Below are positions 25,229 to 59,484 of a stretch of 64,000 nt of DNA, one piece after another; position 1 is the first letter of the stretch, and the number at the start of each line of letters is the position of its first letter. Under the pieces are notes generated by a model, which worked only from the letters and a program-made list of their open reading frames with translations, made no database searches and was not told the origin of the DNA. The stretch comes from Artemia franciscana (Eukaryota > Arthropoda > Branchiopoda > Anostraca > Artemiidae), in the NCBI RefSeq assembly GCF_032884065.1, contig NC_088873.1, positions 26,955,658-27,019,657 of the forward strand, written 5' to 3'. A program made the translations under genes and the position numbers.

Positions 25229-26960
25229 AATCAAACAGTTCGTGGTAACGAACTGTAGTAAGGAGCGACCCGGCTCAATAGAAACCAAAACTCTAAAAAA
25301 TGGAATTTTGATACCAATAGCTACATCAAAAGAATCGCATTTTAATGCTGATTTTAAATATATAAGTTTCATCAAGTTTAGTCTTACGCACCAAAAGTTA
25401 CGAGCCTGAGAAAATTTGTGTTATTTTAGAAAATAGGGGGAAACATCCCCTAAAGTAATAGAATCTTAACGAAAATTACACCATCAGATTCAGCGTATCA
25501 GAGAACCCTACTGTAGAAGTTTCAAGCTCCTATCTACAAAAATGTGGAATTTTGTATTTTTTTGCCAGAAGGCAGATCACGGATGCGTGTTTATTTGTTC
25601 GTTTTTTTTTTTTTTGTTTTTTTTTTCTTCTTTTTTCTTTTTCCCAGGGGTGTTCTTATGGACCAAGTTGCCCTAGAACGTTGCGAGAGGGTTCATTCTA
25701 ACGGAAATGAAAAGTTCTAGTGCCCTTTTTAAGTGACCGAAAAAATTGGAGGGCACCTAGGCCCCCTCCCACGCTAATTATTTTCCCAAAGTCAACGGAT
25801 CAAAATTCTGAGATAGCCATTTTATTCAACGTCTTTGAAAAACCTTATAACTATGTCTTTGGAAACGACTTACTCCTCGACAGCCCCCGTGGGAGGGGCT
25901 ACAATTTACAAACTTTGACCAGTGCTTACATATAGTAATGGTTATTGGGAAGTGTACAGGTATTTTCAGGAGGATTTTTTGGTTGGGGGGAGGGGTCTAG
26001 AAGAGGGGGATATACTGGGGGAACTTTCCATCGAGGAATTTGTCATGGGGGAAGAAAATTTCCATGAAGGGAGCGCAGGATTTACTAGCATTATTTAAAA
26101 AAAAAACAATGAAAAAATAAATATGAAAAAGTTTATTTCAGCTGGAAGTAAGGAGCAGCATTGAAACTTAAAACGAACAGAAATTATTACCCATATGAGG
26201 GGCTCACCTCCTCCTAATACCTCGCTCTTTACGCTAAAGTGTTTTTAGTAATGTCAACTATTTATTCTACGGCCTTTGTGATTCGGGGGTCATTCTTAAT
26301 GAATTGGGACAAAATTTAAGATTTAGTGTAAAGAGAGAGGTACTGACGAGGGGGCGAACCCTCTCATATGTGTAATAAAAACATGAGAATAAAACATTCT
26401 TTTCGTAAGCTAGTTTATGAGTTACGTATATCTTTTACTAATAAAAAGATTCGTAAAAAATTAAAAGTTCTAGTTGCCTTTTTAATTAACCAAAAATTGG
26501 AGGGCAACTAGGCTTCCTCCCTCGCTCTTTTTTTCTCAAAATCATTCGATCAAAATTATGAGAAAGCCATTTAGCCAAAAAAAAATATGCAAATTTCGTT
26601 TTAATTATTTCTCTGCAGAGAGCCAAAATTAAAACATGCATTGATTCAAAAACATTCAGAAATTAAATAAAAAAAACAAGTTTTTTCAACTGAAAGTAAG
26701 GAGCGACATTAAAACTTAAAACGAACAGAAATTACTTCGTATATGAAAGGGGCTGCTTCCTCATCAACGCCCCGCTCTTTACGATAAAGTTTTTTACTGT
26801 TTTAAAAAGGAGAGTTGAGAGAAAGAGTCAAACTTTAGCGTAAAGAGCGAGGCGTTGATGAGGAAGCGGCCCCTTTCATATACGAAGTAATTTCTGTTCG
26901 TTTTAAGTTTTAATGTCGCTCCTTACTTTCAGTTGAAAAAACTTGTTTTTTTTATTTAAT
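25229..26960 (+). mobile_element. Modular hairpin element, near-complete copy (copy A)
   Basis: Left end: ATCAAA then a perfect palindrome CAGTTCGTGGTAACGAACTG (25236-25255), followed at once by TAGTAAGGAGCGACCCGG. Right end: a long foldback (about 26690-26950) whose arms carry AAGTAAGGAGCGACATT and its complement, and CGCTCTTTACGNTAAAG blocks, closing in TTTTTTTATTTAAT. Two internal related modules hold AATTGGAGGGCA (near 25745 and 26493). A reading frame of about 64 codons (KNWRAPRPPPTLI onward) ends near 25933. No transposase was recognised, so the element is presumably non-autonomous. No target-site duplication was identified. Confidence 0.85.
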
Positions 26961-27715
26961 CACTACTTAAGCCTTGTTATGCTTTTGATAGACTTTTGAT
27001 AGCCTTTGTTCAACACGACTTGTTTTGCAACCCAAGAAATTCACTTGTATCAAAATGTCTTCTTTTGATGTTTAAAACTATACTTTATATTTATCGACTA
27101 GACAAGTTCAGTCTTGATATATAGGTTCTGATTCTAAATTTCGGGTTCTGGACCATAAAAAGATATTCTATTATTTTTTTCTTTGCTATTATTTTTTCCT
27201 TCTTTATTACCATTTTTGCAACGTCCCCGTTTATATTTGAATTGGTACAATGGATTGGCATTAATGATATCCAACCGGTCGATTTTTCAAGTATTATTTT
27301 GTTTTGATTTGTTTTCATACTGAGCTGTGTTTATATAAACAAAAATGTTTGTAACAAAGAAAATATTGTCTGTCGACAGATATGTCTAAATATAACTGAA
27401 AATATGAAGTTTAATGATAGAAAGCTGCTTAAGATGTATTTTCAACAATAAAGAAAAGGTAAAAAATAAAAGAAAAAACTCTTAGGCATTGTTCATATTC
27501 GTATAGCAAGCTTTAATAAGGCGCATTAAAAAATAGTAAGAAAAGTAAGAGAAATAGACTTCAATTCTGTTTTCTGTTACGCATGACCGATCAGAGTGCT
27601 TAACTGGTTGTGTAGGTACGTCAGCGGATATGGTGGTCAAAATAAACAAATATTTATTTTATATGTTTATTTTTTGTCATTTGTATTATAAGGCCACACT
27701 GCTTATCACACCAAA
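26961..27715. other. Intron of the DNAI2-like gene, nothing recognised
   Basis: AT-rich sequence without a supportable feature. Confidence 0.4.
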
Positions 27716-27723
27716 GTGTTGCC

Positions 27724-28640
27724 TCAGAATCTCGTTATATTGATAAGAAAAAAAAATCTGCGTATGATCAGAATCGGATTCAGCACCTTCATCCTTTTTT
27801 CGATAGTAGCTGAAGCCTTGACTCTTTTCATGTGCAGTAATAGCTTCTCGTCTCCACTAATGCAGAGAGCACTTTCTTGGGTCCGCTTCATACCATGTTT
27901 TGTTTTTAGAGTTCCACTTAATTTTTCCGTTTTAAGCTTGTTTCGTCTATCCATCTTTATGGTTTTTACTGCATTAAAAAACCTTTCGCCAACGACGTTA
28001 GACATAGGATGAGAAAGCACACATATTACTGCCAATTATATTTATGCGTACAGCTTGGATCTAGAAGAGTTTTTCTTCAAAAAAAAAAAACACACCAGTA
28101 CGGAACCGCAAACCTATTTTCAATATTTTCAACATTGATGAGACTTTGCTTACTCCATTCTTGTTCGATTTTGTTTCCATTCCATAACACTTTCCCATAC
28201 GAAGGGTTGGAGAGAACTAGGCCGTAATCACTGAGCTGATACAGGGTCAACCATTGTTAAACATTTGTAAATGTCAACATCGAAACAGAATCGAGTTTTG
28301 ATCTGCTGCACAGCTTCTATGCAAAAAGACTGTGCAACTCTGAGGATTTTTAAACTGCATCAGAGGACACACCAGGATCTAATTTTAATGTCTAGAGAGA
28401 CTCCTGCCCATTTGGACCCAAATTAATGCTTTCCACGAGAAGTTAAAAGCTTGGGTCTTTCACATTTAGCTGAAATTCATTTATTGACTTCACATAGTCC
28501 TTCTTCAACTCCTGGATTCATTGCGATGTACCTCTGCACCTTTGACATCATGGGTCCCTTATCTGCACCTCTATCAGGTTTTCTTCAAGTGATTAAGAGC
28601 GTTAAAAGAATTTTGAACCCCTCATCTCTTGACTTCTAGT
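27724..28640 (-). pseudogene. hAT-superfamily transposase remnant
   Basis: An uninterrupted - strand ORF at 28035-27724 contains LSHPMSNVVGERFFNAVKTI and KMDRRNKLKTEKLSGTLKTK. This is the layout of the hAT C-terminal dimerisation domain (hydrophobic P-S-V-ER-F-KTIK-R-L-EKLS). Upstream on the - strand (28040-28640), frames broken by stops read like the preceding part of a hAT transposase. The DDE catalytic residues were not located, and the stops rule out an active enzyme. It lies antisense within the last DNAI2-like intron. The family assignment rests on the dimerisation motif alone. Confidence 0.65.
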
Positions 28641-29745
28641 CCAATTTAGTTGACATTGTCGTCGTCCCCTAAAAGGCTCTATCCAGCATATAAAAGAATT
28701 CAAGAATTCCAACGGAAAACTACTTCCGTCCGATTTTCTTTTTTTGATTCAGGAAGAGTATTTTCTAGGGCCAAAACCCTAAAAATTCATTAAAAAATTC
28801 GGAAGACTTGTAAAAATCCCTAGAAATCCATAAATCCCTAAATGAAAAGTTCACCCATAAAAGACCTCAAATCCTCATTTCAGGGGGGAAATCCCTTAAC
28901 ACTGCACCAGTGAAGAATAAAAAATATTGCAGTGGGAAATTCCAAGGAATCATTGAGCAAATAGTTCTTGTCGCAAAATCACTTTCCCTATTTATAGATT
29001 CCAACTAAACCACTATATGAACACCCAGAAGGTTTTGTCAAATCTTTTAGGAGGTGAGTAGAAAAAGAACTGTCACATCCGATTACAGCGCTGCCTATTG
29101 GAGCTGCAGAAGAATATATATCGTGTATTATATTTGTTGGCTTTGGTGTGGTATTTTAAAAACGAAAAGTGAGAACTTGCGTCTGGAAAAAGCTCACCCA
29201 AAAAGTTCGTCGTTGAAAAACTACTCCCCAAGAAAACTTACAACAGGAAGCTTAGTTACCGGAAAATTTGTAACCCAAGATCTCTCCTCCCAATATTTTT
29301 GAGAAATCGCGCCAAGAAAACTCCCATGGAAAAATCATACTTCCCTCGCTCCAGTGGAAAAATGGCACTTGAACATTCGCTATAAAAAATACAGCTTGTC
29401 TCTTGGAAAAAAAAAATTCTCACAAAAAAACCAGCCTTAAAATTAATGAAAAGGGTGAACAGTGAGGTAAAAAAAAAATAACTGTGTAACGAATTCTAAC
29501 TGTGTTCAAGGCTTCTTGAACAGTAAAAGTAAGAGGGAACTTGTAAGAGGCAACAAAAACAGCTTTAGGATTTATAAAGACACACTGTAGAAACAATAAA
29601 CTTCTTTGTGAGAGACCTTAAATAAAAGAACTTGTCCAGAACTGAATTAACAGGCGTATCCTTGTGTAACTTTTCTCTTTTTTAATTTTTTTCCCCGATT
29701 CTATGAAATGCTCAATTTTAAATACTTCCTTATATCTTGTTGCAG
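28641..29745. other. Intron of the DNAI2-like gene, nothing recognised
   Basis: AT-rich sequence with short unassigned ORFs. It ends in the acceptor TTGTTGCAG before 29746. Confidence 0.4.
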
Positions 29746-29889
29746 AGTACAGAATTTTTGATTCGTCAGAATCTAATTATCGATATCCACGAAGACTATT
29801 TTGTTGAAGAAGACGACTACACCTTAGCAGAGTTAGAGCTGATACGCCCCATGTCAGAAGATAATATATTTGTCTCCAAAAGTAGCTAA
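29746..29889 (+). CDS. DNAI2: DNAI2-like gene, third readable exon ending in an in-frame stop
   Basis: It starts in phase 0 after TTGTTGCAG. The translation STEFLIRQNLIIDIHEDYFV matches the DNAI2 block with the QN-IDIYEEYF core, then an acidic stretch EEDDYTLAELELIRPMSEDN. The frame ends in IFVSKSS and TAA at 29887-29889. In complete family members the protein continues for several hundred residues of WD repeats. A GT inside the last codons (29882, GTAGCT) could be a weak donor, so the stop may be intronic. An AATAAA at 30087 would instead allow a short truncated transcript. Confidence 0.8.
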   Translation, partial: STEFLIRQNLIIDIHEDYFVEEDDYTLAELELIRPMSEDNIFVSKSS

Positions 29890-30086
29890 GCGGAAAGAAG
29901 AAACAGTTGAACAAAGATAAAGCCGATGATCCTTTTAAGAGTTTCTGTGGAAAGGTCTGAATGAGGTGAATCAACAAAATCATCTAACAGTCTTGATCGG
30001 ACAAGGTGAAACGTTGATAATGTAAACGCACTAGAAAAAAAAATTAGTAAATTTGTGTTTTGAGTCCTAATTGTCTGCTAAAAAGG

Positions 30087-30092
30087 AATAAA
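30087..30092 (+). terminator. Possible polyadenylation signal after the DNAI2-like stop
   Basis: AATAAA about 200 bases after the in-frame TAA, in AAAGGAATAAAGCTTC. In AT-rich DNA such hexamers occur by chance, so support is weak. Confidence 0.3.
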
Positions 30093-32330
30093 GCTTCTTT
30101 GTTGAAAATTTTACGCTTCTCGTTGTTAATATAAATAATTCATGACTATTTAGGAATTATCAAGCAGAATTCAGCGCGGTTGTGAGGTGTCACAAGACGG
30201 ATACATAATTAAAATTTACATTCCAAAAGGAGGAATGAACATTGTTTGTAATTAAATATTTGAAATTTGCCCCTAGTGAGATAAGGTAAGATTTATTACT
30301 GAAAATCGGCTGTCACAAGTCCAAATGAGCCGAATTCACACTTTAGCGTCAATAAGCAAAAAAAGAATCAAATCAAGCAACAAGCAAGTAAAAAATGGCA
30401 ATTCAGGGAAAATGAAATAGAAAATTATAAAAAGTTCAATATCAATCAGTAAAAATATAAAAAAAAATTCAAACTCGTGAAATTAAAATGTCAATGTTAA
30501 TCAGCAAATATGTCAAATAATTAAAACTTGTAAAATGTAAAAAGAGAATAAAATAATTAAAGCAAAAGGACAAGTTAGTTTTTCAACCAAGAAACAGAAA
30601 GCTTCTGTCATTTGCAAAATGAACAATAAAATTATAAGGTGAAAAGGGAGTGCAAGCTGCTAATGAGCGTTTAAAAATTTAGTTTCAGTGTTAAAGTACG
30701 ATGAAAAATGCAAAGAGGATAAACTTAAACATAAAAAGGAGTGATAAATTCATTAAGGACACCATCCATTGAATCCTTGAGACCCAATCTGTGGCTTCTC
30801 TACAAACCTGTTAAAGACCGTGATTCAACTGGACATTTATTTCCAATTCCACATGTTAGTCAGGTTTTAAGTCAAGGGAGGAGGCAAAGTTCACGTCATT
30901 ATCGTCCAATGTGTCTATCAGCCTTCCAAACAGAATTAAAATTAAAACACAACTTGAGGCACTGTAAGCGTCATGGGTACCAGTCCCTTTAGACGATTTT
31001 GTGTGACCGCACCATCTTGCAGTATAACAAGAAATTATTTTTTGTAGCTGTTACTTTGCTGCCTTGTAATAGCTTTATTGCATTGTGAAATACGAAAGAG
31101 ACAATCTGATTTGTCCTTCTTTTGTTTGATTATGTGGGAATACAAACAAATTACGCAATCAACACATAACTCATAAGTGGTGGGTAGGCCAGTCCGTGAA
31201 GCCACTCGTGGATAGCCTAGACAGTGAAGCCACAAGAACTTGGGATGATAGCAACTTTTTTGGCGTGATTACTGATATGTTTTGCTTTTCAGCTGCTGAC
31301 ACTTGTCACTGATCCTATAGGTGATAATAAGTTTGTGATACGACGTCAACAGTCTTTTTACTTACTCAGAATTTCGAATGAAAGGCTTGATGTGAACTTT
31401 TAACAAATTTTACTAAAACCTTCTTCTAAAGTGCTTTTAGCAGTTTGGGGCTGATATTGTGTAAGCCAAAGAGGGTCTATACAAGCGATCTTTATATTTC
31501 AAGCTATGAGCTTGGGCTCATATTTCCCGTCATTGCCATTGATATCATTCTCAGTTCGTAGAAAAATCAATTTAACTTAACTGCCGGTGAGCGTTTCTGA
31601 GTGATATGAGTGGCAAAAAGTTTTATCCTAATGTTCAAATGACACGATTTCGTCTCTTTTGGTACAATTTTAGTTGGAGAACTTGATAAAATTTAACTTC
31701 ACGCCTGACAACGTTGGAATCAAAAAAGTGCAAATTTGAAACCCCCTAGGTAGGTCCCAAATTTTAAGAATATAGTGTTGCCATCATAAAAGAAAGAATG
31801 ATCACAAAGCTATTGCTCAAGGAACATTCAAGCCAATATTTACACATAGTCCCAGGACTAGGGGTGTACAATGCCAAGGGTGCAAGAAAAAACACTGAAC
31901 AGTTTTTTCCTAACAAAACTGGGTAGCCTAGATGTAATTTATTGTTGAAGTGCCAGGTGCACTTTACTGCTATGTTGCATAATCACAGAAAAGTGATTTT
32001 AAAATAGCATAGAAATTCTGTAGCCACTTATAAACTGTCAGATGTCTCTCAAGAATGACAGCTGAGAGCTTGGAATCACCTCTCTCTTGCATTACTTTTG
32101 ACTTGTCACTCATCATTGCATTCTGTTTAGAGCTTCCACTATCCCTGAATTTTTTATAGGATTTTTCCATATATTTACATGTCTCTTAAAAAAATTGTTT
32201 GTGCCAAGGGTGTCCAAATGCTTGAGCATTGGGGCAGCCCTGGCACTGGCTCCAATGGCCAGCCTTGGGAATAATATCAATCATAATCCTTCCTAACAGA
32301 TCCAAATGTCATACCTGGTAATGATATATT
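30093..32330. other. Gene-less intergenic stretch
   Basis: No WD-repeat exon, RNA gene or clear repeat. The ORFs at 30741-30992 (+) and 31970-32170 (-) have no recognisable domain. Confidence 0.45.
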
Positions 32331-32339
32331 TCCATTTTT

Positions 32340-34500: not shown

Positions 34501-34582
34501 CTGTAATGTTTCCTATTTTGTCTATTTCAATAGTTTATTGGAGACCCAAACACCTACAAACAAAAGTGACAATAAGCATAAG

Positions 34583-34626
34583 CAAGCAAAGCACTATAGC
34601 AAGCAAAGCACTATAGCAAGCAAAGC
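34583..34626. repeat. Short tandem repeat, 22-base unit
   Basis: AGCAAGCAAAGCACTATAGC-type units repeated about twice with a partial third. Non-coding. Confidence 0.7.
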
Positions 34627-35131
34627 TGGGTGTAAACATAATTAAAATAAGCAAAACATTTCTTCTCCTTTCTTTTCAAAATTTATTTTCGTTTTGACTT
34701 CAAACGCTTGCCAGACTGATTTGGATGATTGATGCTGAGGTTCAGCCAGATGACTGGCTTCACAACAAGACCCAAGGTGGTGGTACAGGTGTGCAATGTG
34801 CTGGCAAATGGCTATGTGGTGCCACCTGCTGCAGTGGTGTCCTGTTCCACTTGCTGATTTGTGATAGTTAAAGGACTGCTGCCTGATTGGCTGTAAAAGA
34901 CTGACATCACCAGTCAGAGTTCACAAGGGGTTTGGAAGTATGACTCTTGTGGTTGGGGTGGGTCAAGTAGGAGCTTGAACTTGCAGTAATGTGCTACTCC
35001 TGTTGCCTTCTGCAACAAGCTTTATTGAGGTTTGTTTATCTGGCAGAGATGCTTGAAGTGATTGCCCCATGGGTGGTATGGTGTCAGCAGCACCTATTTG
35101 TTGCCCATTGTATGTTGTTGATGAGGCAAAT

Positions 35132-36396: not shown

Positions 36397-36655
36397 CCAG
36401 TGATAGTAACGCTATTAAAACAAGAATTATCAATACTGGTTGAATACTTACAACTATTCCAGCTAGAAAGGGGAATAAGCAGTATTGTATGGAATTTGCT
36501 CTTTCACTGTTATGAGAAAAAGATGCTAGATTGAACTCAACAATGGCATTGAATATTCTTATTATGATACAAATTCCCCCTTGGACATTGAAAACAGTAT
36601 CATAAAGTACTGAATTTCCTGCTTTCAAAAATACACATGTACCTCAAAAATTTAA
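36397..36655. other. Unassigned stretch between two retroelement remnants
   Basis: A - strand ORF (36628-36383) has a hydrophobic segment but no recognisable family. Confidence 0.35.
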
Positions 36656-39058: not shown

Positions 39059-40819
39059 TATCAAATAGTTCATGGTAATGAACTGTAGTAAGGAGCGAGC
39101 CGGCTCAATAGTAATCAAAACTCTAAAAAATTGAATTTTGATATCAATAGCTACATCAAAAGAATCGCATTTTAATGCTCATTTTAAATATATAAGTTTC
39201 ATCAAGTTTAGTCTTACCCATCAAAAGTTACGAGCCTGAGAAAATTTGCCTTATTTAAGAAAATAGGGGGAAACACCCCCTAAAATTCGTAGAATCTTAA
39301 CGAAAATGACACCATCAGATTCAGCGTATCAGAGAACCCAACTGTAGAAGTTTCAAGCTCCTATCTACAAAAATGTGGAATTTTGTATTTTTTGCCAGAA
39401 GACAAATCATGGGTGCGTGTTTATTTGTTTGTTTTTTTTTTGTTTTTTTCTTTTTTCTTTTTCCCAGGGGTCATCGTATCGATCAAGTGGTCCTAGAATG
39501 TCGCAAGAGGGCTCATTCCAACGGAAATGAAAAGTTCTAGTGTCCTTTTTAAGTGACCAAAAAAATTGGAGGGCATCTAGGCCCCCTCCCACGCTCATTT
39601 TTTTCCCGAAGTCAAGGGATCAAAATTTTGAGATAGCCATTTTGTTCAGCATGGCCGAAAACCATAATAACTATGTCTTTGGGGATGACGTACTCCCCCA
39701 CAATCCCTAGGGGAGGGGCTGCAAGTTACAAACTTTAACCAGTGTTTACATATAGTAATGGTTATTGGGAAGTGTACAGACATTTTCAGGGGTATTTTAT
39801 TTTGTTTGGGGGTGGGGCTAAGGGGAGGGGGCTATGTTGTAGGATCTTTCCTTGGAGGAATCTGTCATGGGGGAAGAAAAATTCAATGGAAAGGGAGCAG
39901 GATTTTTTAGCAATACTATAAGAAAACAATGAAAAATAAGCATGAAAACGTTTTTTCAAATGAAAGGAAGAAGTAGCATTGAAACTTAAAACAAACAGAG
40001 ATTATTACGCATATGAGGGGTTCTAAAAATACTTTAGCATAAAGAACGAGGTATTTAGGAGGAGATAAATACCTCGCTCTTTATGCTAAAGTATTTTTAG
40101 TAATTTCAACTATTTATTCTACGGCTTTTCTGATTCAAGGGTCATTCTTAAAGAATTGGGACAAAACTTACGATTTAGTGTAAAAAGCGAGGTATTACCG
40201 AGGGTACAAACCCCCTCGTATACATAATAAAAATATAAGATTATGAAAGTTTGTTACGTAAGTTAATTCTTAAGTTACGTATATTTTTTACTAATAAAAA
40301 CGTTCGTTAAAAATTAAAAGTTCTAGTTGCCTTTTTAAGTAACCGAAAAATTGGAGGGCAACTAGGCCTCCTTCTCCACCCCTTATTTCTCAAAATCGTC
40401 TGATCAAAACTAAGAGAAAGCCATTTAGCCAAAAAAAGAATTAATATACAAATTTCATTTTAATAATTTATGTGTGGAGAGCCAAATCCAAACATGCATT
40501 AATTCAAAAACGTTCAGAAATTAAATAAAAAAAACTAATTTTTTTAGCTGAAAGTAAGGAGCGACATTAAAACTTAAAACGAACAGAAATTATTCCGTAT
40601 ATGAAATGGGTTGTCCCCTCCGCAATCCCTCGCTCTTTACGCTAAAGTTTGACTCTTTACCACAATTCTACTTTTTAAAACAATTAAAAGCTCTAGCGTA
40701 AAGAGCGGGGGATTGCGGAGGGGACAACCCATTTCATATACGGAATAATTTCTGTTCGTTTTAAGTTTTAATGTCGCTCCTTACTTTCAGATAAAAAAAT
40801 TAGGTTTTTTTATTTAATT
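39059..40819 (+). mobile_element. Modular hairpin element, near-complete copy (copy B)
   Basis: Same plan as copy A. The left palindrome is AGTTCATGGTAATGAACT (39067-39084), followed by GTAGTAAGGAGCGAGCCGG. Two AATTGGAGGGCA modules lie near 39566 and 40350. The terminal foldback runs from about 40545 to 40800 with GGAGCGACATTAAAACTT and its complement. The end is TTTTTTATTTAAT. The family reading frame is interrupted here by one stop (near 39712). The element ends 104 bases before the MTRF1L-like ATG, so it may contain or abut that promoter. Confidence 0.85.
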
Positions 40820-42282: not shown

Positions 42283-42283
<1 letters not shown>

Positions 42284-42784
42284 TAGCTGTTGGGGTGGCG
42301 CTTCGTGCCACCCCAACAACTAGTTGGTGGGGGCGCTTCGCGCCCCCCCCCCCCAAGCCCCCCCGCGCGCGTAAGTCGTTACGCGCCATTGTAGTTGTGT
42401 CCCTATGTCCCACCTGTGAATATAGATAGATATAGATATATGTATATACTTGCTGTTGGGGTGGCGCTTCGCGCCACTCCAACACCTAGTTGGTGGAGCG
42501 CTTCGCGCCCCCCCAAGCCCCCCCGCGCGCGTAAGTCGTTACGCGCCATATTAGTTACGCGCCATATTAGTTACGCGCCATTGTAGTTGTGTCCCTGTGT
42601 CCCACCTCTGAATATAGATAGATTTATATATGTGTTTCAAACTACGTAAAAATTGCGAATATACAACATTCTTGGCTTTCCCATTGTCTGTCCATATACA
42701 AAGCCGTATGTACTAATAATGACGTCATATGCAAACGCTCTTTTTACAAACAAACAAACATGCATACACACAACTCGTGTTTAT

Positions 42785-42807
42785 ATAGATAGATAGATAG
42801 ATAGATA
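42785..42807. repeat. (TAGA)n microsatellite
   Basis: About five to six TAGA units inside the Helitron 3' region. Confidence 0.8.
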
Positions 42808-42816
42808 CAATACAAA

Positions 42817-43383
42817 TTAACTACGTAAAACTTGTGAATATACAACAGTCTTCGCTGTCCCATTGTCTGTGCGTATAAATAGATTGTCAGGTTTACCGAC
42901 CCTCAAAGATGCAACATACAATTGTACATTGGTAAAGCAATCTGTATTAAGATCTATACCGCATTTTTCTAGTGATTGCCCTTGAGCTTTGTTGATGGTG
43001 GTTGCAAATGCTAATCGAATTGGGAATTGCAATCTTTTAAATTGAAAAAGCAGATCCGTTGGAATCATGGGAATGCGAGGAATGAGAACAGCCTCACCCT
43101 CATAAGGCCCTGTCAAGATTGTGGCATCTATTAGGTTTTCCATTGTTTTTTTTTTTACGGCAAGTCGCGTGCCATTGCAAAGCTTTGGTGGGTTGATATT
43201 TCTTAAAAGTATTATTGGTACGCCTATTTTTAGTTGTAGCAGGTGTGGTGGACACCCTGAAGGATCTATGGAATTTAAAAATTCAGATGGATAATTAACC
43301 GCTTCATTTGGTTCCGAAATACAAATTAACTGCGTAAAACTTGCGAATATACAACATTCTTCGCTGTCCAATTCTCGCTGCAT
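42817..43383 (-). pseudogene. Helitron helicase, C-terminal part
   Basis: A 188-residue frame with the Pif1-like superfamily 1 helicase end. It has the KIGVPIILLRNINPPKLCNG block, typical of Helitron/Pif1 proteins, then FATTINKAQGQSLEKCGIDL, a motif near motif VI, and VASLRVGKPDNLFI at the end. Helicase C-terminal function in the intact family is DNA unwinding during rolling-circle transposition. Walker A is not in this ORF; it lies upstream near 43670, separated by the duplicated segment at 43577-43326. Confidence 0.85.
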
Positions 43384-43577
43384 ATAAATAGATTGTCAGG
43401 TTTACCGACCCTCGAACATGCAACGTACAATTGTCCATGGGAAAAACAATCAGTATTAAGATCAATACCACATTTTTCTAATGATTGACCTTGAGCTTTG
43501 TTAATGGTGATTGCAAATGCTAATCGAATTGGGAATTGCAATCTTTTAAATTGAAAAGGCAGATCTGTTAGAATCAT
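43326..43577 (-). repeat. Duplicate of the Helitron helicase C-terminal end
   Basis: An 83-residue frame near-identical to the end of the neighbouring helicase ORF, including INKAQGQSLEKCGIDLN and CSRVGKPDNLFI. It ends in the same stop context. It shows that two Helitron 3' halves are joined head to tail, probably by insertion of one copy in another or by unequal exchange. Confidence 0.8.
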
Positions 43578-43584
43578 GGGAATG

Positions 43585-43720
43585 CGAGGAAGGCTATTCC
43601 GGACGACGCAATTGCCAACGCTATATCATTTTTAGATCGAATTGATGCCAGAATCAGTTTTATCACAAACGTTTTATCAGTACCTCCTGGCGCATCCAAA
43701 AAGAAAATTTCTCCAACGTT
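43585..43720 (-). pseudogene. Helitron helicase Walker A segment, mutated
   Basis: Reading the - strand near 43687-43658 gives LDAPGGTDKTF, where the nucleotide-binding loop should read GGTGKT. The glycine-to-aspartate change would be expected to harm ATP binding. The segment follows directly on the truncated N-terminal domain in a different frame. Confidence 0.65.
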
Positions 43721-44394
43721 GTTATCGATGACGAAGGTAAAATTGTTAATCTTCCAACGTTTGTGGTATTACCGTCATTTATAACTGCATCTCGCAAATG
43801 AATGTATTGTTCAGAGCGGAGCTTGGTCTGATTCAGGCGGATATATAGCAAACGTTCTGATTCAATTTTAGCATACATATCCACGACAAATTGGTGAAAC
43901 AATTCACGGCATTTTAAAATATAATTTTCTTCATCCTGCCGAATCATTAGTCTATAGGAATAATAATGCATTGCACTGCATTTCTTATTCATTTCTTTGT
44001 TAGTGGCTGGATTCATCAATTTAATATTAAAGTGATAGCCGTCGGCTCCATCCCAAAAAATGATAGGATATTGTAGGGCATCGTAGCATCGATGAGTTTC
44101 AGCAATTCTTAACAACTGAGCGTTTCGTTTATGTAGAATAATATCTCGAGGTAAAAACTGATCACCGACCATAACGATTGCCACTTCGTCGATAGTCGGA
44201 GCATTGTATCTACGCACATGTTGGCCAGGAGGCGTTTTGTCAGCGGAAATAACAATTTTATGAGTATCAGTAGGCATCAAATCGATGGCTGTTTTGAACA
44301 GACGCACTAAATTATTATTTTTGTGGAAAAGATGTTGTAATTGGGAAACGATTGTCCTTTCAACGTTGGGAGAAATTTCGCAACGTGTATTCAA
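43663..44394 (-). pseudogene. Helitron N-terminal (Helitron_like_N) domain segment
   Basis: A 243-residue frame with family blocks DKTPPGQHVRRYNAPTIDEV, DGADGYHFNIKLMNPATNKE and AMHYYSYRLMIRQDEEN. It breaks off at RLTILPSS, just before the part that carries the HUH nuclease motifs, and then runs out of frame. It is joined upstream to the STPR ORF by a frameshift at about 44400-44430. It cannot give an active Rep protein. Confidence 0.8.
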
Positions 44395-44407
44395 TTCAGA
44401 ATTTCTA

Positions 44408-45487
44408 TCACTGATGAAAGTACAATTGTAAAAATTTATGATTCTCGCCTGAGGATGGTAGAAGGGACCCTGCTTTATGATAAATTTGCCCTTTTACTTT
44501 GAAAGTAGACATAAATTGATTTGGATTTTCGATTTGGGCTCCAAACGACGTCATTTGGAAACATGAGTTGTATTGTCTGATTTTTGACAAAAAACGCTTA
44601 GATTCTGACGTAGTTCCAGTAAGGAAAGTCTTCAATGGCTCTGGTGGTGCAGCCAATAGAGGAAGTTTAACTTTTCCTGAGGCGCAACACATTTCCATTG
44701 TTTCACCATTGAATTTCAAGGCCTTGCAATAGGGACAAATTTTAGACATTGTCCCGATTTGAACACATCTTCTCAAGCTATAATCATCGACTGGGTTGTA
44801 CCTGAATGCCAGGCGATAACTTTCAGATTGCTCTGATTCCTCGGCACGCTTTCTTTTCTTACTTTCTCTATCAGCAGCAAGCCTGATTTCTTGCTGTTCT
44901 TGTAATTCCTCGGCACGCTTTCTTTTCTTACTTTCTCTATCAGCAGCAAGCCTGATTTCTTGCTGTTCTTGTGATTCCTCGGCACGCTTTCTTTTCTTAC
45001 TTTCTCTATCAGCAGCAAGCCTGATTTCTTGCTGTTCTTGTAATTCCTCGGCACGCCTTCTTTTTTCGCATTCTCTTTTAGCAGCAAGTCTGCTTCTGCG
45101 TTGCTCTGGTAGTTCCTCGGCATGCTTTCTGTTCTTTCTTTCTCTATCAGCCTCAAGCCTGTTTCCCTTCTGGTCTTTTGATTCCTCGGCACGCCTTCTT
45201 TTTTCACTTTCTCTTTTAGCAGCAAGTCTGCTTCTGCTTTGCTCTGGTATTTCCTCGGCATGCTTTCTGTTCTTTCTTTCTCTAGCAGCCTCAAGCCTGT
45301 TTCCCTGCTGGTCTTTTGATTCCTCGGCACACCTTCTTTTTTTACTTTCTCTTGTAGCAGCAAGTCTGCTTTCGCGTTGCTCTGGTAGTTCCTCGGCACG
45401 CTTTCTTTTCTGACTTTCTCTATCAGCAGCAAGTTTTTTGGCATAGACTCTTTGAGCATCTTCATCAGTCATTGTAAACTTAAACAT
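44408..45487 (-). CDS. Helitron ORF N-terminus with STPR-type 23-residue repeats
   Basis: A 359-residue open frame starting MFKFTMTDEDAQRVYAKK. About nine tandem 23-residue units follow (roughly 45436-44815), each of the form RLAADRESKKRKRAEELQEQ plus three residues. This is the score-and-three peptide repeat (STPR) pattern, a basic helical DNA-binding repeat known from insect FMBP-1. A cysteine cluster follows (CPYC near 44735, then CC and C), and then a stretch ending GSLLPSSGENHKF known from Helitron proteins. The frame is lost at about 44410. The adjacent frame (45465-44773) is a repeat artefact. It probably provided DNA binding for the Rep/helicase protein. Confidence 0.8.
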   Translation of the reverse strand: MFKFTMTDEDAQRVYAKKLAADRESQKRKRAEELPEQRESRLAATRESKKRRCAEESKDQQGNRLEAARERKNRKHAEEIPEQSRSRLAAKRESEKRRRAEESKDQKGNRLEADRERKNRKHAEELPEQRRSRLAAKRECEKRRRAEELQEQQEIRLAADRESKKRKRAEESQEQQEIRLAADRESKKRKRAEELQEQQEIRLAADRESKKRKRAEESEQSESYRLAFRYNPVDDYSLRRCVQIGTMSKICPYCKALKFNGETMEMCCASGKVKLPLLAAPPEPLKTFLTGTTSESKRFLSKIRQYNSCFQMTSFGAQIENPNQFMSTFKVKGQIYHKAGSLLPSSGENHKFLQLYFHQ

Positions 45488-45654
45488 TAATAGATTTCTA
45501 CGCGAACATATGTCTTATATAACTTGAATGACGTCACCTTCAAAGCAAAAATGACGGCAACTAATTTCATGACGTCAGCCGAAACATGACGTCACCTTAT
45601 CCACAGATCCACAGACAGACAGACAACTTATTTTTTTATATATAGATAGATATA

Positions 45655-45905: not shown

Positions 45906-45934
45906 GTTTTTGAATTGGTATATGATGAAATAAA

Positions 45935-48215: not shown

Positions 48216-48341
48216 ATGACTGAAGAACCTACAATGGCAACACCTGAGGAAGCTGCTCAAAACGAATGTATTCAAGCCGAAGTAGCTGAGTTGGTAAAGC
48301 GTTATGTTTCAGGTTCTAGGTCCGAGAGACTCCAGGTTTGA
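48216..48341 (+). other. Short ORF in Helitron DNA, 41 codons
   Basis: ATG at 48216 opens MTEEPTMATPEEAAQNECIQ, then AEVAELVKRYVSG, ending TGA at 48339-48341. It is balanced in composition, preceded by A-rich DNA and followed by TGAACCTTGG and another A-rich tail. The family is unknown. Confidence 0.35.
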
Positions 48342-48756
48342 ACCTTGGCTTTAGCATTAATACAAAAGAAGAAAAAAACTAAAAAAGGTAAAAACTACAA
48401 AAAAACTAAAAAGAAAATATATATATATTTATATTTTATATATATATTTTCTATATATTGTCTGTCTGTGTAACGATGACTCTGGTCAAACATTTTCAGA
48501 TCAATTGCTGGCAATTGGAAACGAAAAGCTCCCAGTAGTGGGAAAGCCAAGAATGTTGTATATTCGCAATTTTTACGTAGTTTGAAACACATATATAAAT
48601 CTATCTATATTCACAGGTGGGACACAGGGACACAACTACAATGGCGCGTAACTAATATGGCGCGTAACGACTTACGCGCGCGGGGGGGCTTGGGGGGGCG
48701 CGAAGCGCCCCACCAACTAGGTGTTGGGGTGGCGCGAAGCGCCACCCCAACAGCTA

Positions 48757-51643
<2,887 letters not shown>

Positions 51644-51827
51644 GCTTTGGATGTCCTTGTTCCTGAAGATGTTGTAGAAAGAAGTGACACTATTCTAGAA
51701 GTAAGCGCTGGTGTGGGTGGACAAGAGGCTATGCTGTTTGCCGGAGAATTGTTTCATATGTATTCCTTATTTGCTGAGTCCAGACAATGGAAGTTCGAAG
51801 TTGCCTCATATGATGCAACTGAAATTG
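51644..51827 (+). CDS. MTRF1L: MTRF1L-like gene, third coding exon
   Basis: Phase 0 after TTTAAAG. It encodes ALDVLVPEDVVERSDTILEV followed by SAGVGGQEAMLFAGELFHMY, the conserved start of the release-factor core (A/V-G-VGGQEA block, not the catalytic GGQ). It ends KFEVASYDATEI with donor GTAATT at 51828, leaving one base of a glycine codon completed at 63479. Confidence 0.95.
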
Positions 51828-53280
51828 GTAATTAACAATTAAAACAGCTGATGTATTAAATAAAGGCTTATCTGCGAGATTGCGGGATCCATTTCCCTAA
51901 AAACCATGGTCAAAATTTTTAGTCTTTGTTAGAGAAGCGGGTCACAAAATAGTTTCAAAGGCATACAGGCTGAGACTGTCTTTTTTATCCTTTTTGCTCA
52001 AATTCTTTTTTTTTTAGCATATATACCTTTTTCTCAAAAGTTTCTGGAGAACGTCTGGACACTTTCTCGGGGGTCGAGTTTTCTCTTGTATCATCCTCTG
52101 CGCTGGGCTACATCATCTGCGCTGGGCTACATATGGCTATTCCCAATTCTGTCCTTTGTCTTGTGCTCTCATCGAGGTTAAGATTATCGAGAGACAAAAC
52201 TGTGCAAAGCTTCTTAGTAAATTTGGTTATTCCCTTCCGTACTAGTGCTAATTACCATAATTTGTAATGCTTAGTAAAAAGTTTTACGGAATTATTTTTG
52301 GTGGGGAATAGTATAGTCTTGATCAGTATATTTTGTTTCTAGAAAACTAACAAAAGATCAGTGAGAAAACGTCCATATTTATCATTTTAATCAAGCTTTA
52401 TGTGCTAAAAGAAAAAATTGTGACAGTAAAAGTTCCTTGTTTAAGAATGATTTTCCAGTGTTTGAGGACAATTCCTTGCCTGCATGCTTTCCAGAATGTA
52501 TCTCTGCTGCTTTTTGTTTTTCAACAACGTTCTTCTGTAAAAAGTTGCTTTTTTGAATTTACACTGAGGATCCATGAAGGACTGAATTGATTTCTTTGCA
52601 GATCTTCTAGCTTTGTTGACGGTGTAATATTTTTAATTATTGCTTTCATTGAATATTTTGTTCATTTTTTTTTTACTTTTGGCTTTTTAAGGCAGCCACT
52701 GTTTTGCTTTGCTGTTTCTTTTTTCTCTTTTTTTAATTTCCGGTGCAATTTTTTGTACTTTATGGCATTTGCTGTTTTCTTTTGTGTGAGCATTGAGACA
52801 TTAATCATTCAGTAGATTGTTAGACCTTATAATTGGCATAGATGTGCACGAGGGCTATCCAGAAAGTTACTTCTATCTTGGAATTAAAAATGAAAAGCAG
52901 AACTAAACGAAGTATTGTTAATAATTGACCGTTGATGGCCACACTATTTTACTAAGTTGGGGCTCGTTAATTTTTCTCCTTTAAATTTATTCACCGTAAA
53001 GATACAGTAACCATTCATTTATTTCTGCCGCCCTGAGAGTTGTACTACCTATTTAAGCCTGTCTATGGAATTGTGGAAATGTTTCCATCATTGTGAACAG
53101 TTGTGTCAGTTCACAAAAATTTAGGAGTGGAGGGTGGGGGCTGAAAAATTTCAATTCTGCTGAAGCACCTGAAGTGAACTCCTCCCCCCCCCCTACAGAC
53201 ACTCACGCCCTTCTTACGTTGTTGCTACACTCTTGAAGCTTATCAAGAAAATGTCTCTGTTCTTCAGTTCGCAAAAGTTT
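51828..53280. other. MTRF1L-like intron, left part
   Basis: AT-rich sequence without genes. A 17-base unit TCTGCGCTGGGCTACAT is tandemly duplicated near 52096-52131. Confidence 0.5.
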
Positions 53281-53289
53281 GATATAACA

Positions 53290-54240
53290 TTGTTATAAAT
53301 TAAATACAAGTTCAAGCGATTCTATTGAGCGTATGCTTAAACCAAGCGTACAAAATCCCTTTCTATTATTTATGGAACCAAGAAAACTCTTGTAATCTAA
53401 GCCCGTCGTGCATAGTATTTGCATGATTGACGATGATCTTCTCAATATTCTTAGATTTTTTTCAGACACGGAGTAATGGAATTGACTAAAAGCAGTATAA
53501 ACATGTTTTTCATCGCAAAGATGACCGATCAATTCCACCTAACTCTGCCTCAAAAACTTGATGTTTTCTTCCAAAGAGCTTAGGAATTTGATATGAGATT
53601 TGTCTGTTGTTTGCAAGTCTCGTGTGCTCAATCTTAAAATAAGAAAAAATGGAGAAACGACGTGACTAAAACCGAAACAGATGCTGATTTTTGAAAATCT
53701 TTGAAAAGAAAATGTTTATTAATACTTTGTAATGGTTGTGTAACGCGAGTACGCATTACCATGGAAAATCAATGGCATCTTTCTCAAGTGGAAACCCAGT
53801 GTCAGTGTTGAAATCACCAAACAAATATCGGAGCAAAAATTCCATAACAGAACCAGAAAGTGGGCAGTAAAGCTCCTCCGCTGGAACTTATGAATCGTGG
53901 GCAACGTTTATTTCTAGTAACAGCGATACAAAAACACCTTCAGGATTTAGACATAAGTCAAAATGTCGAAATAAATACAAGGAATCTCTTGTATAAATTA
54001 CTAAACCTCCTCTTTTTTGTTTTTTTTTATGATGAAAAAATTCTTAAAGATAATTTGGGAAATCAATACGATTTGCCTTTTGCTGATCTCAAAATGTTTC
54101 ATGAAGCCTAATGCCTTATTAGAATTTTCCACTTCAGTCAGAAGCTGTGTTTGTCTCGCCCAGTACTCCGTTAGAAAAATGATAATGGGACTTGAAATAT
54201 ACCTTATCCTAAAAAAAAGCAAAGCACAATTTTGTTGATT
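53290..54240 (-). mobile_element. LINE endonuclease fragment, - strand
   Basis: Broken - strand frames read RGGLVIYTRDSLYLF (about 54010-53965), EELYCPLSGSVMEFLLRYLF (about 53880-53820) and GDFNTD (about 53815-53798), the GDFN motif of LINE endonucleases. A linker follows down to about 53290. Stops and a frameshift are frequent. The same LINE family is found in the opposite orientation at 60180-61000. Confidence 0.7.
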
Positions 54241-54357
54241 TCATCATTGAACAGAAAAAATCATCATTATTGAACAGAAAATGTATCCTATTTTTCTCCA
54301 ACTGTGTGAAATCTAACTAGATCCCAATTTATTACCTTGCATTGCACCCATCTTTAA

Positions 54358-57300
54358 ATCAAACAGTTCGTGGTAACGAACTGTAGTAAGGAGCGACCCG
54401 GTTCAATAGTAACCGAAACTCTAAAAAATGGAATTTTGATGCCAATAGACACATCAAAAGAATTGCATTTTCATGTTGATTTAAAATATATAAGTTTCAC
54501 CAAGTTTAGTCTTACCCATCAAAAGTTACGAGCCTGAGAAAATTTGTCTCATTTTAGAAAATATGGAGAAACACCCCCTAAAAGTCATACAATCTAAATG
54601 AAAATCACACCATCAGATTCAGAAAACCTTATTGTAGAAGTTTCAAGCTCGTATCTACAAAAATGTGGAATTTCGTATTTTTTGCCAGAAAGATCACGGA
54701 TGCGTGTTTATTTGTTTTTTTTTTTGTTTTTTTCCCCAGGGGTAATCTTATCGACTGAGTAGTCCTAGAATATCGCGAGAGGGCTCATTCTAACCGAAAT
54801 TAAAAATTCTAGTGCCCTTTAAGTGACCCCCCAAAAAAATTGGAGGGCACCTAGGCCCCCTCCTACGCTCATTTTTTACCAAAAGTCACGGGATCAAAAT
54901 TCTGAGATAGCCATTTTATACACCATAGCTGAAAAATTTAATAACTATGTCTTTAGGGACGACTTACTCCCCCACAGTCCCCGTTGGAGGGGCTGCAAGT
55001 TACAAACTTTGACATGTGTTTACATGTCATATAAAATCGATGACTCTTCGTCAACAAGTAGCCCAATTAGTTCTGCTGCTTGGTGCAAATACTACGACCA
55101 GATTTTCAACACTATAAACCGTTTTGTTCATGCTATTTTTATGAGGTTTCTTATTTCTGCGCTTCTCATATCACTCCGCCAGAACCAGACCCTCCCAGTT
55201 AATTTAGTTTCGGTGGCACAAGCTATAAAGAAGCTTAAGTCTAGCTCTATTGATTGTGATGGTATAAGTGTCAAACACCTAAATGTTGATTGTCCAGCTC
55301 TAGTCCAACATTTACAACTTCTGTTTCAAATGTGCTTATGCACCTCGGTTGTGCCTGAAAGCTTTTTGTGTGGAACAGTTACTCTAATCCTGAAAAGAGG
55401 AAAGATTCCGACTGAGTGTGCATCTTACAGGCCTATAACGGTTTCCTGCAATATAAGCAAAATGTTTGAGTATCTTCTCCTGCCATCAGTTAATTCTTCG
55501 GCATATTTTGGTGAAAATCCGATTGGGTTTTCAGCTTGGGTAGGTTGCCAGCAGGCTCATCGAGTTTTGGCTAATGTTCTTAATGAGGCTACTAAAAAGG
55601 GATTCGAGTTACATTTATGTGCTTTGGACCTCTCCAAAGCCTTTGACACTGTTACGCATAAACCAAGCTATCTTTTCCCTTTTTAGTCACGGTATCAACA
55701 TATTGGTAATTTTTCTTCTTAGATTATAGTATTCAAATTCCTTTTTGCGGATTAAAACAGATATGAGGGTTTCAGATAGTAAAATTCCAATACGACGTGG
55801 GTTCCAGCAAGGTGCTGTCCTCTCCCCCTCTATTTTCAAACTTTGTATATCATCTGTCCTTTCCTCTATCCCACCTACGTGCATCCTCAATTCTGTAAAT
55901 ATTTCTTATCTTGCCTATGCGGATGATATTCTTTTGATCAGTAGGACTAAAAAAGGGCTCTCTTTGTGTGTTTCAACAGTAGCATCTAAGCTTCATGCGA
56001 TTGGACTTTCTCTTAATCTTTCAAAGTGTGAATATCTTTAATTTAATAGCAATATCACTACTCCTCTAATCTGTGGATCTTTTTCTATCCCGTCGGTTTC
56101 TTCATTTCGGTGGCTGGGAATTAACGTTAGTAAAACTCTAAAATCCTTACGGACTCTCACTGTTCCTGATTGCAAGAAGAAAATCCAATTAAGTTACTCT
56201 AAAATTGTTGCTAACCGAGGTAGATACAATAGAAAGTCTCTTGCTAAATTATGCTCGGTTTTTACAGATCATTCGGTTTTGTTTCTTTCTGGTATTTACC
56301 CTATTTTTCATAAAAAAGATATCAGTTCAATTCGTTCTTATTATTTCCGTTTTCCCGTTTTCTATTGTATCTGCCTCCATGGTATAGGAATAGGAGCCTC
56401 ATATCTATTTATAGTTTCCCGGATATTTGGTCGAAGCTCACAGAGCTTGCTGGCAAAAATACCCCAGTCTACTTATAAGTATCTGCCCGCCCACGGAGGC
56501 CTTACTCGTTTGCTTTGGTTTCTTGTTTTTTCTGTTTTGTGTAGTGTTTGTTTTGTTTCTTTTATTGACACTCCGCTTTGATTTTTTGTAGCGGGTCAAA
56601 AATAAATTATTATTATTATTATATAGTAATGGTTACTGGGAAGTGTACAGACGTCTTCAGGGGGTATTTTTTGGGTTTAAGGGGGAGAGTTGGGGGGATT
56701 ACTTGGGAGGATATTTCCACGGAGGAACTTCTCATGGGAGAAGAGAATTTCAATGAAGGAAGCGCAGGGTTTTCTAGCATTATTTAAAAAACAATGAAAA
56801 AATAAATATGAAAAGTTTTTTCTACTGAAAGTAAGGAGCAGTATTAAAACTTAAAACGAACAAAAACTATTACGCATATGAGAGGTTTATCTCCTCGTTA
56901 TACCTCACTCTTTACGCTAAAGTATTTTTAGTAATTTCAACTGTTTGTTCTACGGCCTTTGTGATTCAGAGGTCATTCTTAAGGAATTGGGACAAAATTT
57001 AAGCTATAGTGTAAAGACTGAGGTATCGACGAGGGTTGAACCCCCTCATATACGCAATAAAACATACGAATATGGAAGTTCGTTACGTAAGTTAATTCGT
57101 AAGTTACGTATATTTTTTACCAATGAAAACGTTTGTAAAAAATTAAAAGTTCTAGTTGCCTTTTTAAGTAATCAAAAAATTGGAGGACAACTAGGCCTCC
57201 TCCCTCGCTCCTTTTTCTCAAAATCTTCCGATTAATTACAATCAATTGATATGCAAGTTTCGTTTGAATTATTTATGTGAGAAGAGCCAAGATCAAAACA

Positions 57301-57627
57301 TGCATTAATTCAAAAACGTCCAGAAATTAAATAAAAAAAAGAAGTTTTTTTTAAAATGAAAGTAAGGAGCAACATTAAAATTTAAAACGGAAAGAAATTG
57401 CTTCGTATATGATAGATGCTTTTCCTCCTCAACACCCCGCTCTTTACGCTAAAGTTTCTTACTGTTTTAAAAAGTAGAGTTAAGAGAAAGAGTCAAACTT
57501 TAGCGTAAAGAGCGACACATTGAGAAGGAAAATCCCCTTTCATATACCGAGCAATTTCTGTCCGTTTTAAGTTTTAATGTTGCTCCTTACTTTCATTTAA
57601 AAAAACTTGTTTTTTTTATATTCAATT
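54358..57627 (+). mobile_element. Modular hairpin element, copy C, split by a LINE insertion
   Basis: The left palindrome CAGTTCGTGGTAACGAACTG is at 54364-54383, followed by TAGTAAGGAGCGACCCGG. The element is continuous to about 55023, then interrupted by a LINE until about 56622, and resumes with TAGTAATGGTTACTGGGAAG exactly where copies A and B continue. The terminal foldback is at about 57350-57610. The first part holds the family frame KNWRAPRPPPTLI onward. Confidence 0.85.
55024..56622 (+). mobile_element. LINE reverse transcriptase fragment nested in copy C
   Basis: A 5'-truncated non-LTR retrotransposon. RT finger and palm blocks are in order: AIKKLKSSSIDCDGISVKHL, ASYRPITVS, LCALDLSKAFD (motif A, near 55620-55650), GFQQGAVLSPSIF (motif B, near 55800) and AYADDILLIS (motif C with YADD, near 55912-55941), then LSLNLSKCEYL (motif D). 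C-terminal sequence follows to 56580 and the element ends in a (TTA)n tail (56605-56622). A frame break near 55680 and a stop at 56039 inactivate it. The clade was not determined; a TAA/TTA-type tail is known for some I-like and other LINEs. A clear target-site duplication was not found. Confidence 0.85.
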
Positions 57628-57867
57628 ACTTACCTAAATCAGGACGTCTACCTGAGCCCCCATCGACAAAAAAAGGGATTTTGAGGAAGATTGCAGTATA
57701 ATTGAGCCCATTTCTTCAGCACTGGGCGAAAAATATGGGACAGGAAAAAACAAATGAAAACGAAAACAGGAAACCTATCCAATAAACATTTTCAGTTTTC
57801 TATGTCTCAAGCTGCAGCTCGATGCCTCTGCGAAGTACTGCACAAATTTGTCATTTATTCAAGTTTG
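57628..57867. other. Spacer between two inverted hairpin-element copies
   Basis: About 240 bases of ordinary AT-rich sequence between the foldback ends of copies C and D. It is not part of either element as far as can be seen. Confidence 0.5.
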
Positions 57868-59484
57868 ATCAAATATACAAAAAAACAAGTTTTTTCAACT
57901 GAAAGTAAGGAGCGACATTAAAACTTAAAACGAACAGAAATTACTTCGTATATGAAAGGGGCTGCTTCCTCATGAACGCCCCGCTCTTTACGCTAAAGTT
58001 TGACTCTTACTCTCAACTCTTCTTTTTAAAACAGTAGCAAACTTTAGCGTAAAGAGCGGGGCGTTGATGAGGAAGCAGCCCCTTTCGTATACGAAGTAAT
58101 TTCTGTTCGTTTTAAGTTTTAATGTCGCTCCTTACTTTCAGTTGAAAAAACTTGTTTTTTTTTTATTTAATTTCTGAACGTTTTTGAATCAATGCATGTT
58201 TTGATTTTGGCTCTCCGCAGAGGAATAATTAAAACGAAATTTGCATATTTTTTTTTTTGGCTAAATGGCTTTCTCATAATTTTGATCGAATGATTTTGAT
58301 AAAAAAAAGAGCAAGGGAAGAACCCTAGTTGCCCTCTAATTTTTTGGCTAATTAAAAAGGCAACTAGAACTTTTAATTTTTTACGACTCTTTTTATTATT
58401 AAAAGATATAATTGTCCCAATTTTAATTCCAAAAAGATTTGTCCCAATTCATTAAGAATGATTCCTGAATTACAAAAGCCGTAGAATAAATAGTTGACAT
58501 TGCTAAAAATACTTTAGCGTAAAGATCGAGGTATTAGGAGGAGGTGAGCCCCTCATATGGGTAATAATTTCTGTTCGTTTTAAGTTTTAATGCTGCTCCT
58601 TACTTCCAGCTGAAAAAAACTTTTTCATATTTATTTTTTCATTGTTTTTTTTTAAGTAATACTAGTAAATCCTGCGCTCCCTTCATGGAAATTTTCTTCC
58701 CCCATGACAAATTCCTCGATGGAAAGCTCCCCCAGCATATCCTCCTCTTCTCAACCCCTCCCCCAACCAAAAAATCCTCCTGAAAACGCCTGTACACTCC
58801 CCAGTAACCATTACTATATGTAAGCACTGGTCAAAGTTTGTAACTTGTAGCCCCTCCCACGGGGATTGTGGGGGAGTAAGTCGTCCCCAAAGACATAGTT
58901 ATAAGGTTTATCGACTACGCTGAATAAAATGGCTATCTCAGAATTTTGATCCATTGACTTTGGGAAAATAATTAGCGTGGAAGGGGGCCTAGGTGCCCTC
59001 CAATTTTTTAGTCACTTAAAAAGGGCACTAGAACTTTTCATTTCCATTAGAATGAGCCCTCTCGCAACATTCTAGGACAACTTGGTCCATACGATCACCC
59101 CTGGGAAAAAAAACAAACAAATAAACACGCATCCGTGATCTGCCTTTTGGCAAAATATACAAAATTCCACATTTTTGTAGATAGGAGCTTGAAACTTCTA
59201 CAGTAGAGTTCCCTGATACGCTGAATCTGATGGTGTGATTTTCGTTAAGATTCTATGACTTTTAGGGGGTGTTTCCCCCTATTTTCTAAAATAAGGCAAA
59301 TTTTCTCAGGCTCGTAACTTTTGATGGGTAAGACTAAACTTGATGAAACTTATATATTTGAAATCAGCATTAAAATGCGATTCTTTTTATGTAGCTATTG
59401 GTATCAAAATTCCATTTTTTAGAGTTTTGGTTACTATTGAGCCGGGTCGCTCCTTACTACAGTTCGTTACCACGAACTGTTTGA
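57868..59484 (-). mobile_element. Modular hairpin element, near-complete inverted copy (copy D)
   Basis: It begins with the foldback end (AAAAAAACAAGTTTTTTC, arms to about 58165) and ends with the palindrome CAGTTCGTTACCACGAACTG (59460-59479) followed by TTTGAT. The family reading frame is intact on the - strand (about 59005-58810, KNWRAPRPPSTLI onward). The copy is the mirror image of copy C across a 240-base spacer, but the outer flanks differ, so two insertions are more likely than one inverted duplication. Confidence 0.87.

Follow-up and report, generated by a model that had tools for sequence, protein, structure and literature searches.

The 64,000-nucleotide stretch of the Artemia franciscana genome analysed here (the window; C11:26955658-27019657 of an assembly of 1,270,528,402 bases in 6,468 contigs) carries five full-length copies, A to E, of a very abundant repeat family that is probably a non-autonomous member of the Helitron class, i.e. 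of the rolling-circle elements moving as a single strand, with ends that resemble those of Helitron2. This placement follows from clean insertion at A|T (the bar marks the junction), a 5'-TC terminus, hairpins at both ends and an asymmetric inverted repeat. Coordinates given without a contig are those of the window.

The motif AGTAAGGAGCGA, whose recurrence had been pointed out in a sequence-only reading of the window, has 107,138 exact matches in the 1.27-Gb assembly compared with 62 for a reversed control, and with up to one mismatch it occurs 15 times in the window, where 100 shuffles give a mean of 0.09 and a maximum of 1. Exact 25-base left ends number 19,489 preceded by A and 8,171 preceded by C, G or T. 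Such exact ends make up 12 of the 26 recognisable left ends in the local sample used for the survey of copies (the window plus 200 kb at C1:400001-600000, with 195,000 readable bases), and extrapolation from this share suggests that the whole genome may hold some 60,000 left ends. The family accounts for 15.6% of the C1 sample and 14.4% of the window, both of which are enriched in the motif (36 in 195 kb and 12 in 64 kb, respectively, vs about 84 per Mb on genome average), and scaling the local coverage by the motif count gives an estimate of roughly 82-90 Mb, or 6.5-7% of the assembly. For comparison, an A. franciscana assembly paper puts Helitrons at 8.81% of the genome (PMC11492255), and Helitrons go unmentioned in the available part of another (PMC10827361). 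No description of the family was found in the titles and abstracts returned by literature searches, whose scope excludes subscription papers and Repbase and which do not prove its absence; a text search with the 12-base motif returned a single match, in an unrelated paper. Copy A has no match in a plasmid collection, and an exact 22-base arm sequence has none in a viral-contig collection or in a genome-contig collection.

Termini and target site

The element begins with 5'-TC and a 20-base hairpin and ends with a short 3' hairpin followed by TATTTAA, giving the overall form TCAAACAGTTCG...TTTAA. The 26 left ends of the local sample, found with up to 6 substitutions, fit TCAAAC plus the hairpin with scattered changes; TC comes first in 25 of them and CC in one, the search pattern itself having started with TC, and they are preceded by A in 23 cases and by T in the other 3. 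In copy A the hairpin, CAGTTCG-TGGTAA-CGAACTG, occupies positions 25236-25255 (+), 5 nt from the TC end, which assigns the palindrome noted earlier at one end of the repeats to the 5' side. Each of its seven pairs is standard, with G-T counted, in 21 to 25 of the 26 left ends. The innermost pair is retained in copy B by a two-sided change from G-C to A-T, yet this covariation deserves little weight, because other copies show broken pairs and both copy B changes are transitions.

Most right ends have the form ...GTCGCTCCTTACTTTCAGTT-(A-run)CTWG(T-run)-TATTTAA, and TATGTAA, AATGTAA and AATTTAA occur as variants. The 3' hairpin has a stem of at least 6 pairs at 17 of the 19 right ends, compared with 2.8 on average and 8 at most after mononucleotide shuffling. 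In copy A it is seen as AAAAAA-CTTG-TTTTTT at 26936-26951 (+), directly outside the 3' copy of the asymmetric inverted repeat. This repeat, AACTG..AGTAAGGAGCGAC, lies at bases 21-39 from the 5' end (in copy A as AACTG-T-AGTAAGGAGCGAC at 25251-25269, +), and its other copy (26915-26934, + in copy A) ends 25 bases from the 3' end. The outermost 6 bases of the element are almost inverted (ATCAAA / TTTAAT), and a terminal inverted repeat is absent beyond these approximately 6 bases. It should be noted that 14 of 17 right ends were placed by a pattern requiring a following T, with those of copies D, t and F placed by eye and copies 6 and m2 ending differently, so that the T found first in all 16 right flanks tabulated is largely built into the search; genome-wide, 147 right ends are followed by a base other than T, a count of non-T flanks alone from which no ratio follows.

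The target is better defined by loci that lack the element. Altogether 23 uninterrupted paralogous loci, representing the empty sites of 7 copies, show neither duplication nor loss of target bases: the junction is followed by T in all 23 and preceded by A in 16, by T in 4 (all of copy 9) and by G in 3 (all of copy A). Five of them come from the local sample, namely one paralogue for copy 10 (TTCACAGTCTA|TCTAAC) and four for copy 9, the latter reading T|T, and all five are gapless at the junction. The others come from a genome search with the joined flanks of 11 copies, in which 40 of 1,442 candidates were scored; among those scored, 21 matches that belong to copies A, 1, 2, 3 and 5 extend across a junction, and 18 of these were fetched (5 for copy 1, one each for copies 2 and 3, 3 for copy 5 and 8 for copy A), leaving out three weaker copy 1 matches on C134. 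All 18 are gapless at the junction, the empty locus of copy 2 having a 6-base gap 3 bases off it and some other loci having gaps farther out, and for the remaining 6 of the 11 copies the listed matches are the filled loci themselves. The gapless junctions at the 23 loci thus establish clean insertion, mostly between A and T, and these empty sites bear out the earlier remark that no target-site duplication is obvious.

The lack of a visible transposase likewise holds for the copies read: the longest stop-to-stop frames of copies A, B, 9 and 10 span 79, 76, 115 and 143 amino acids, respectively, and no transposase-coding frame was seen among them, by reading without a protein family search. A pattern search places the exact 5' end in front of a different inner sequence at 35 places genome-wide, and the three of these that were read comprise two deletion variants of the family and one sequence without a frame above 74 amino acids in 1,201 bases, so that none has a coding-looking frame.

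The 3' foldback and adjoining copies

The 3' end of the element is carried by a foldback which had been put at about 250 bases and is confirmed as a feature, its length in copies A and B being about 296 bases (two arms of about 130 and a loop of about 37). In copy A it extends over 26663-26959 (+), and its arms, one of them reverse-complemented, are 97.7% alike. By-eye reading of the alignment divides the arms into three sequence types (alpha, beta and gamma), and both arms are of one type in all 15 two-armed copies out of 16 tried, the left arm of copy E being mostly deleted. The two arms of a copy also resemble each other more than their type requires: once the 29 leading alignment columns (A/T runs) are excluded and arms are shuffled among copies of the same type, the mean within-copy identity of 94.06 is reached in 0 of 20,000 permutations (mean 92.57, maximum 93.87). 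Differences found in one arm range from 0 to 18 among individual arms. Taken as a whole, these data indicate that the arms are homogenised in source lineages and decay independently afterwards. The homogenisation could have proceeded through snap-back at a single-stranded stage, and ordinary gene conversion could do likewise.

At C1:592571-595753, two opposed 5' ends share one common foldback without a 3' end. This double-ended structure was considered as a snap-back product and rejected in that role, since its halves are 80.5% identical, which means that it joins two different copies.

Copies of the family also adjoin one another end to end. Exact joints are found genome-wide in head-to-tail orientation at 224 sites, head-to-head at 3 and tail-to-tail at 35 at most, some of them on redundant-looking contigs and by three search patterns that differ in strictness; random landing at the edges of older copies would be expected to give a ratio of about 2:1:1. 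Eight joints were read, and all but one, the chance flank L037, proved genuine: six head-to-tail joints were fetched, five of them genuine, and two further genuine ones occur in the array at L029 described below. In two of the five head-to-tail pairs a foldback is present where the downstream arms are expected, and the neighbours there, with the sequence between them unread, belong to different subfamilies (85% and 88%); the remaining three pairs have other sequence at the expected arm position. Despite the 224:3 imbalance, the joints were therefore rejected as proof of rolling-circle concatemers, and the different subfamilies in both arm-read pairs suggest, from the few pairs read, that the majority of joints probably arose by later insertion in one set orientation. 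One maize pair is interpreted likewise, as consecutive insertions (PMC2267711).

Two further arrangements involve adjoining copies. The locus L029 (C4:50993700-50994700) is a head-to-tail array of two near-identical 510-base units with exact end-to-end joints and the motif variant AGTAAGGAGTGAC, and at C1:543300-544350 a mini-copy of about 331 bases adjoins a duplicated stretch of about 140 bases which contains the 5' hairpin end of a divergent relative together with its flank.

Copies and other features of the window

The four near-complete copies reported earlier all exist and align end to end, within limits that could be refined. Copy A (25231-26959, +), the ends of which are mapped and supported by 8 paralogous empty loci with gapless junctions, has beta-type arms and contains an internal imperfect foldback module, recognised by self-similarity as kin to the terminal arms, at 26102-26378 (+). 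Alignment and end mapping define copy B (39061-40817, +) with alpha-type arms, copy C (54359-57625, +) with gamma-type arms, and, on the opposite strand, copy D (57869-59484, -) with beta-type arms, the right end of which (TTTGA|T) is placed to within about 10 bases. In the arm comparison and the estimates of coverage and divergence, copy D was extended by three bases beyond these limits, to 57866. The split observed in copy C is caused by an insert at 55026-56620 (+), which ends in ATT repeats and matches the RVT_1 profile with 24.9 bits, under the Pfam cut-off of 29.6; this reverse-transcriptase-like element, apparently 5'-truncated, was rejected as a component of the family and is nested in it.

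As for the three partial copies listed with them, the one near 15226 turned out to be the right end of a fifth full-length copy, E (15232-17109, -), which has a decayed 5' hairpin end of its own, internal duplications (one of them a tandem duplication of about 160 bases, 94% alike, at 15363-15680), and a Kimura two-parameter divergence of 0.34 from the majority sequence of 15 copies (0.058-0.145 for the 14 others), and which is thus old. The other two stand as fragments, namely copy F (20337-20727, -), aligned as a terminal foldback plus an internal fragment, and a weak 5'-half fragment (19647-19805, +; 76% over 161 bp to copy A).

Outside the family, the window holds a broken canonical Helitron at 42283-45514 (-) with Pif1 2B and Helitron_like_N domains, upstream of which modules of STPR, a 23-residue peptide repeat, lie in an overlapping frame. 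Close to it, at 48276-48356, a degenerate T-rich stretch scores as a tRNA match with 35.5 bits (gathering score 29). An open frame with PCRF and RF-1 domains at 63388-63963 (+) probably belongs to the gene for a mitochondrial peptide-chain release factor.

Placement, alternatives and implications

Helitron2 has hairpins at both ends and an asymmetric inverted repeat (PMC3627910), and the present family shares with its members CRe and Helitron-1N_CQu the 5' T, the 5'-terminal hairpin as well as the 3' one, the non-coding derivatives, and an inverted repeat whose 3' copy lies immediately inside the 3' hairpin, about 25 bp from the 3' end in the family and about 20-30 bp in Helitron2. With FoHeli1/2 of Fusarium oxysporum (PMC5148889) it shares 5'-TC, a hairpin at the very 5' end, a T-rich 3' terminus, an inverted repeat some tens of bases in from the 3' end, and ends confirmed by pre-insertion sites; FoHeli1/2, however, are autonomous and are described as inserting preferentially between TNAT and the next base (given both as T and as A), whereas the family is non-coding, uses A|T and has a large foldback. 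Its plan is closest to Helitron2 and FoHeli1/2, and it probably works like a Helitron2 passenger; it is not filed as a Helitron2 member because it departs from that group in where its 5' repeat lies and in lacking a T-rich target.

Several observations weigh against a Helitron-class element with Helitron2-like ends. The 5' copy of the inverted repeat starts about 20 nt in, downstream of the first arm of the hairpin, instead of 0-2 bp from the 5' end as in Helitron2, and A|T is the predominant target in place of the TTTT|T or C given for Helitron2 in PMC5148889. Further differences from Helitron2 are the 300-base 3' foldback with its concerted arms, the RepHel protein not seen in the family, and the flanking duplications of CRe-1, 2 and 3 (PMC3627910), which the family lacks. 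The 3' termini are TTAA or GTAA in most copies instead of the CTRR of Helitron1; A precedes the 5' end preferentially (70%) and not invariably; and the T after the 3' end depends for its support on the empty sites, most right ends having been placed by a pattern that already required it. A RepHel-coding element with the family's ends was not found, with 3 of the 35 candidate places read. Likewise, a given arm has its own partner as nearest arm in just 15 of 30 cases, and the different subfamilies of the neighbours in both arm-read pairs leave the joints without proof of concatemers.

The earlier suggestion of a non-autonomous Helitron2/Helentron-type element accordingly stands in part: Helitron class, lack of coding capacity and most Helitron2 features (PMC3627910) are upheld, and the Helentron part is unsupported, because Helentrons and HINEs insert in TT (PMC4067079), whereas A|T is the predominant site of the family; exceptions are the 3 of 26 left ends preceded by T and the T|T paralogues of copy 9. 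HINE/DINE-1 elements are otherwise similar in being non-coding, with subterminal inverted repeats, a terminal palindrome, no duplication and a very high copy number; they differ by variable terminal T's (PMC4067079) and by their hairpin geometry.

The A|T insertion without duplication and the 5'-TC are also features of canonical Helitron1, and the family could in principle consist of Helitron1 passengers, moved by an abundant canonical transposase that tolerates divergent ends and merely resembling Helitron2. Such transposase loci are plentiful: Helitron_like_N gives 7,436 first-look candidates genome-wide, 150 of which were scored, all of these exceeding the cut-off, and a broken one lies in the window. 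The 3' end of the latter, read as a GC-rich hairpin GGGGTGGCRCGAAGCGCCACCCC followed by AACAGCTAGT, is unlike that of the family in this comparison of 3' ends, and the element was rejected as the family's partner for that reason; moreover, the family lacks the 3'-CTRR with a hairpin 10-12 nt inside and has an extra 5' hairpin, which makes movement as Helitron1 passengers the less likely reading. A cut-and-paste transposon without target duplication and with degenerate inverted ends, as in the Spy group, is a far weaker candidate. Spy elements also lack duplications and insert at AT-rich sites (PMC4482050), and the near-inverted outermost 6 bases of the family would suit them, but the Spy target AAATTT is not seen in the flank table, where little is fixed beyond A|T and flanks are variable, and an inverted repeat of at most about 6 bases is accompanied by a small hairpin at one end and a 300-base foldback at the other. 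Least credible of all is a Foldback-type element, or an inverted or tandem satellite amplification, to which the long foldback at one end, the array of 510-base units at L029 and the two 5' ends on one foldback at C1:592571-595753 would lend themselves. Foldback elements bear long inverted repeats at each terminus and duplicate their target; the family has its foldback at a single end and no duplication, its copies are dispersed with common ends, the dissimilar halves of the double-ended structure point to two different copies, and the precise empty sites largely refute this explanation.

Under the favoured placement in the Helitron class with Helitron2-like ends, a RepHel transposase supplied in trans would nick at the A|TC 5' end, one strand would be peeled off up to a stop at the 3' hairpin and inverted repeat, and the freed strand would then be inserted at an A|T site. 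Before the second strand is made, or while it is being made, the long foldback at the 3' end could pair with itself, and template switching or repair in this state may copy changes from arm to arm, which would account for their concerted evolution. Where an older copy offers an AA|T or A|TC edge, new copies would insert in its orientation and so become head-to-tail neighbours. Going further, the family may represent a distinct Helitron lineage that combines Helitron2-type ends with Helitron1-type A|T integration and has its 3' foldback kept matched by single-stranded snap-back copying, a proposal we regard as tentative and by no means the likelier outcome. If it is true, the homogeneity of the arms would be a scar of the source element's single-stranded passage, and the edges of the element would be re-used as oriented landing sites.

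The family dissociates hairpins at both ends from a T-rich target, two features commonly treated as a set, and its tens of thousands of natural foldbacks are material for testing whether single-stranded transposition intermediates homogenise inverted arms. Its ends can serve any annotator of the brine shrimp genome as a search handle, and, if the placement and the estimate hold, one family, undescribed in the literature found by search, would make up approximately 6.5-7% of a 1.27-Gb animal genome.

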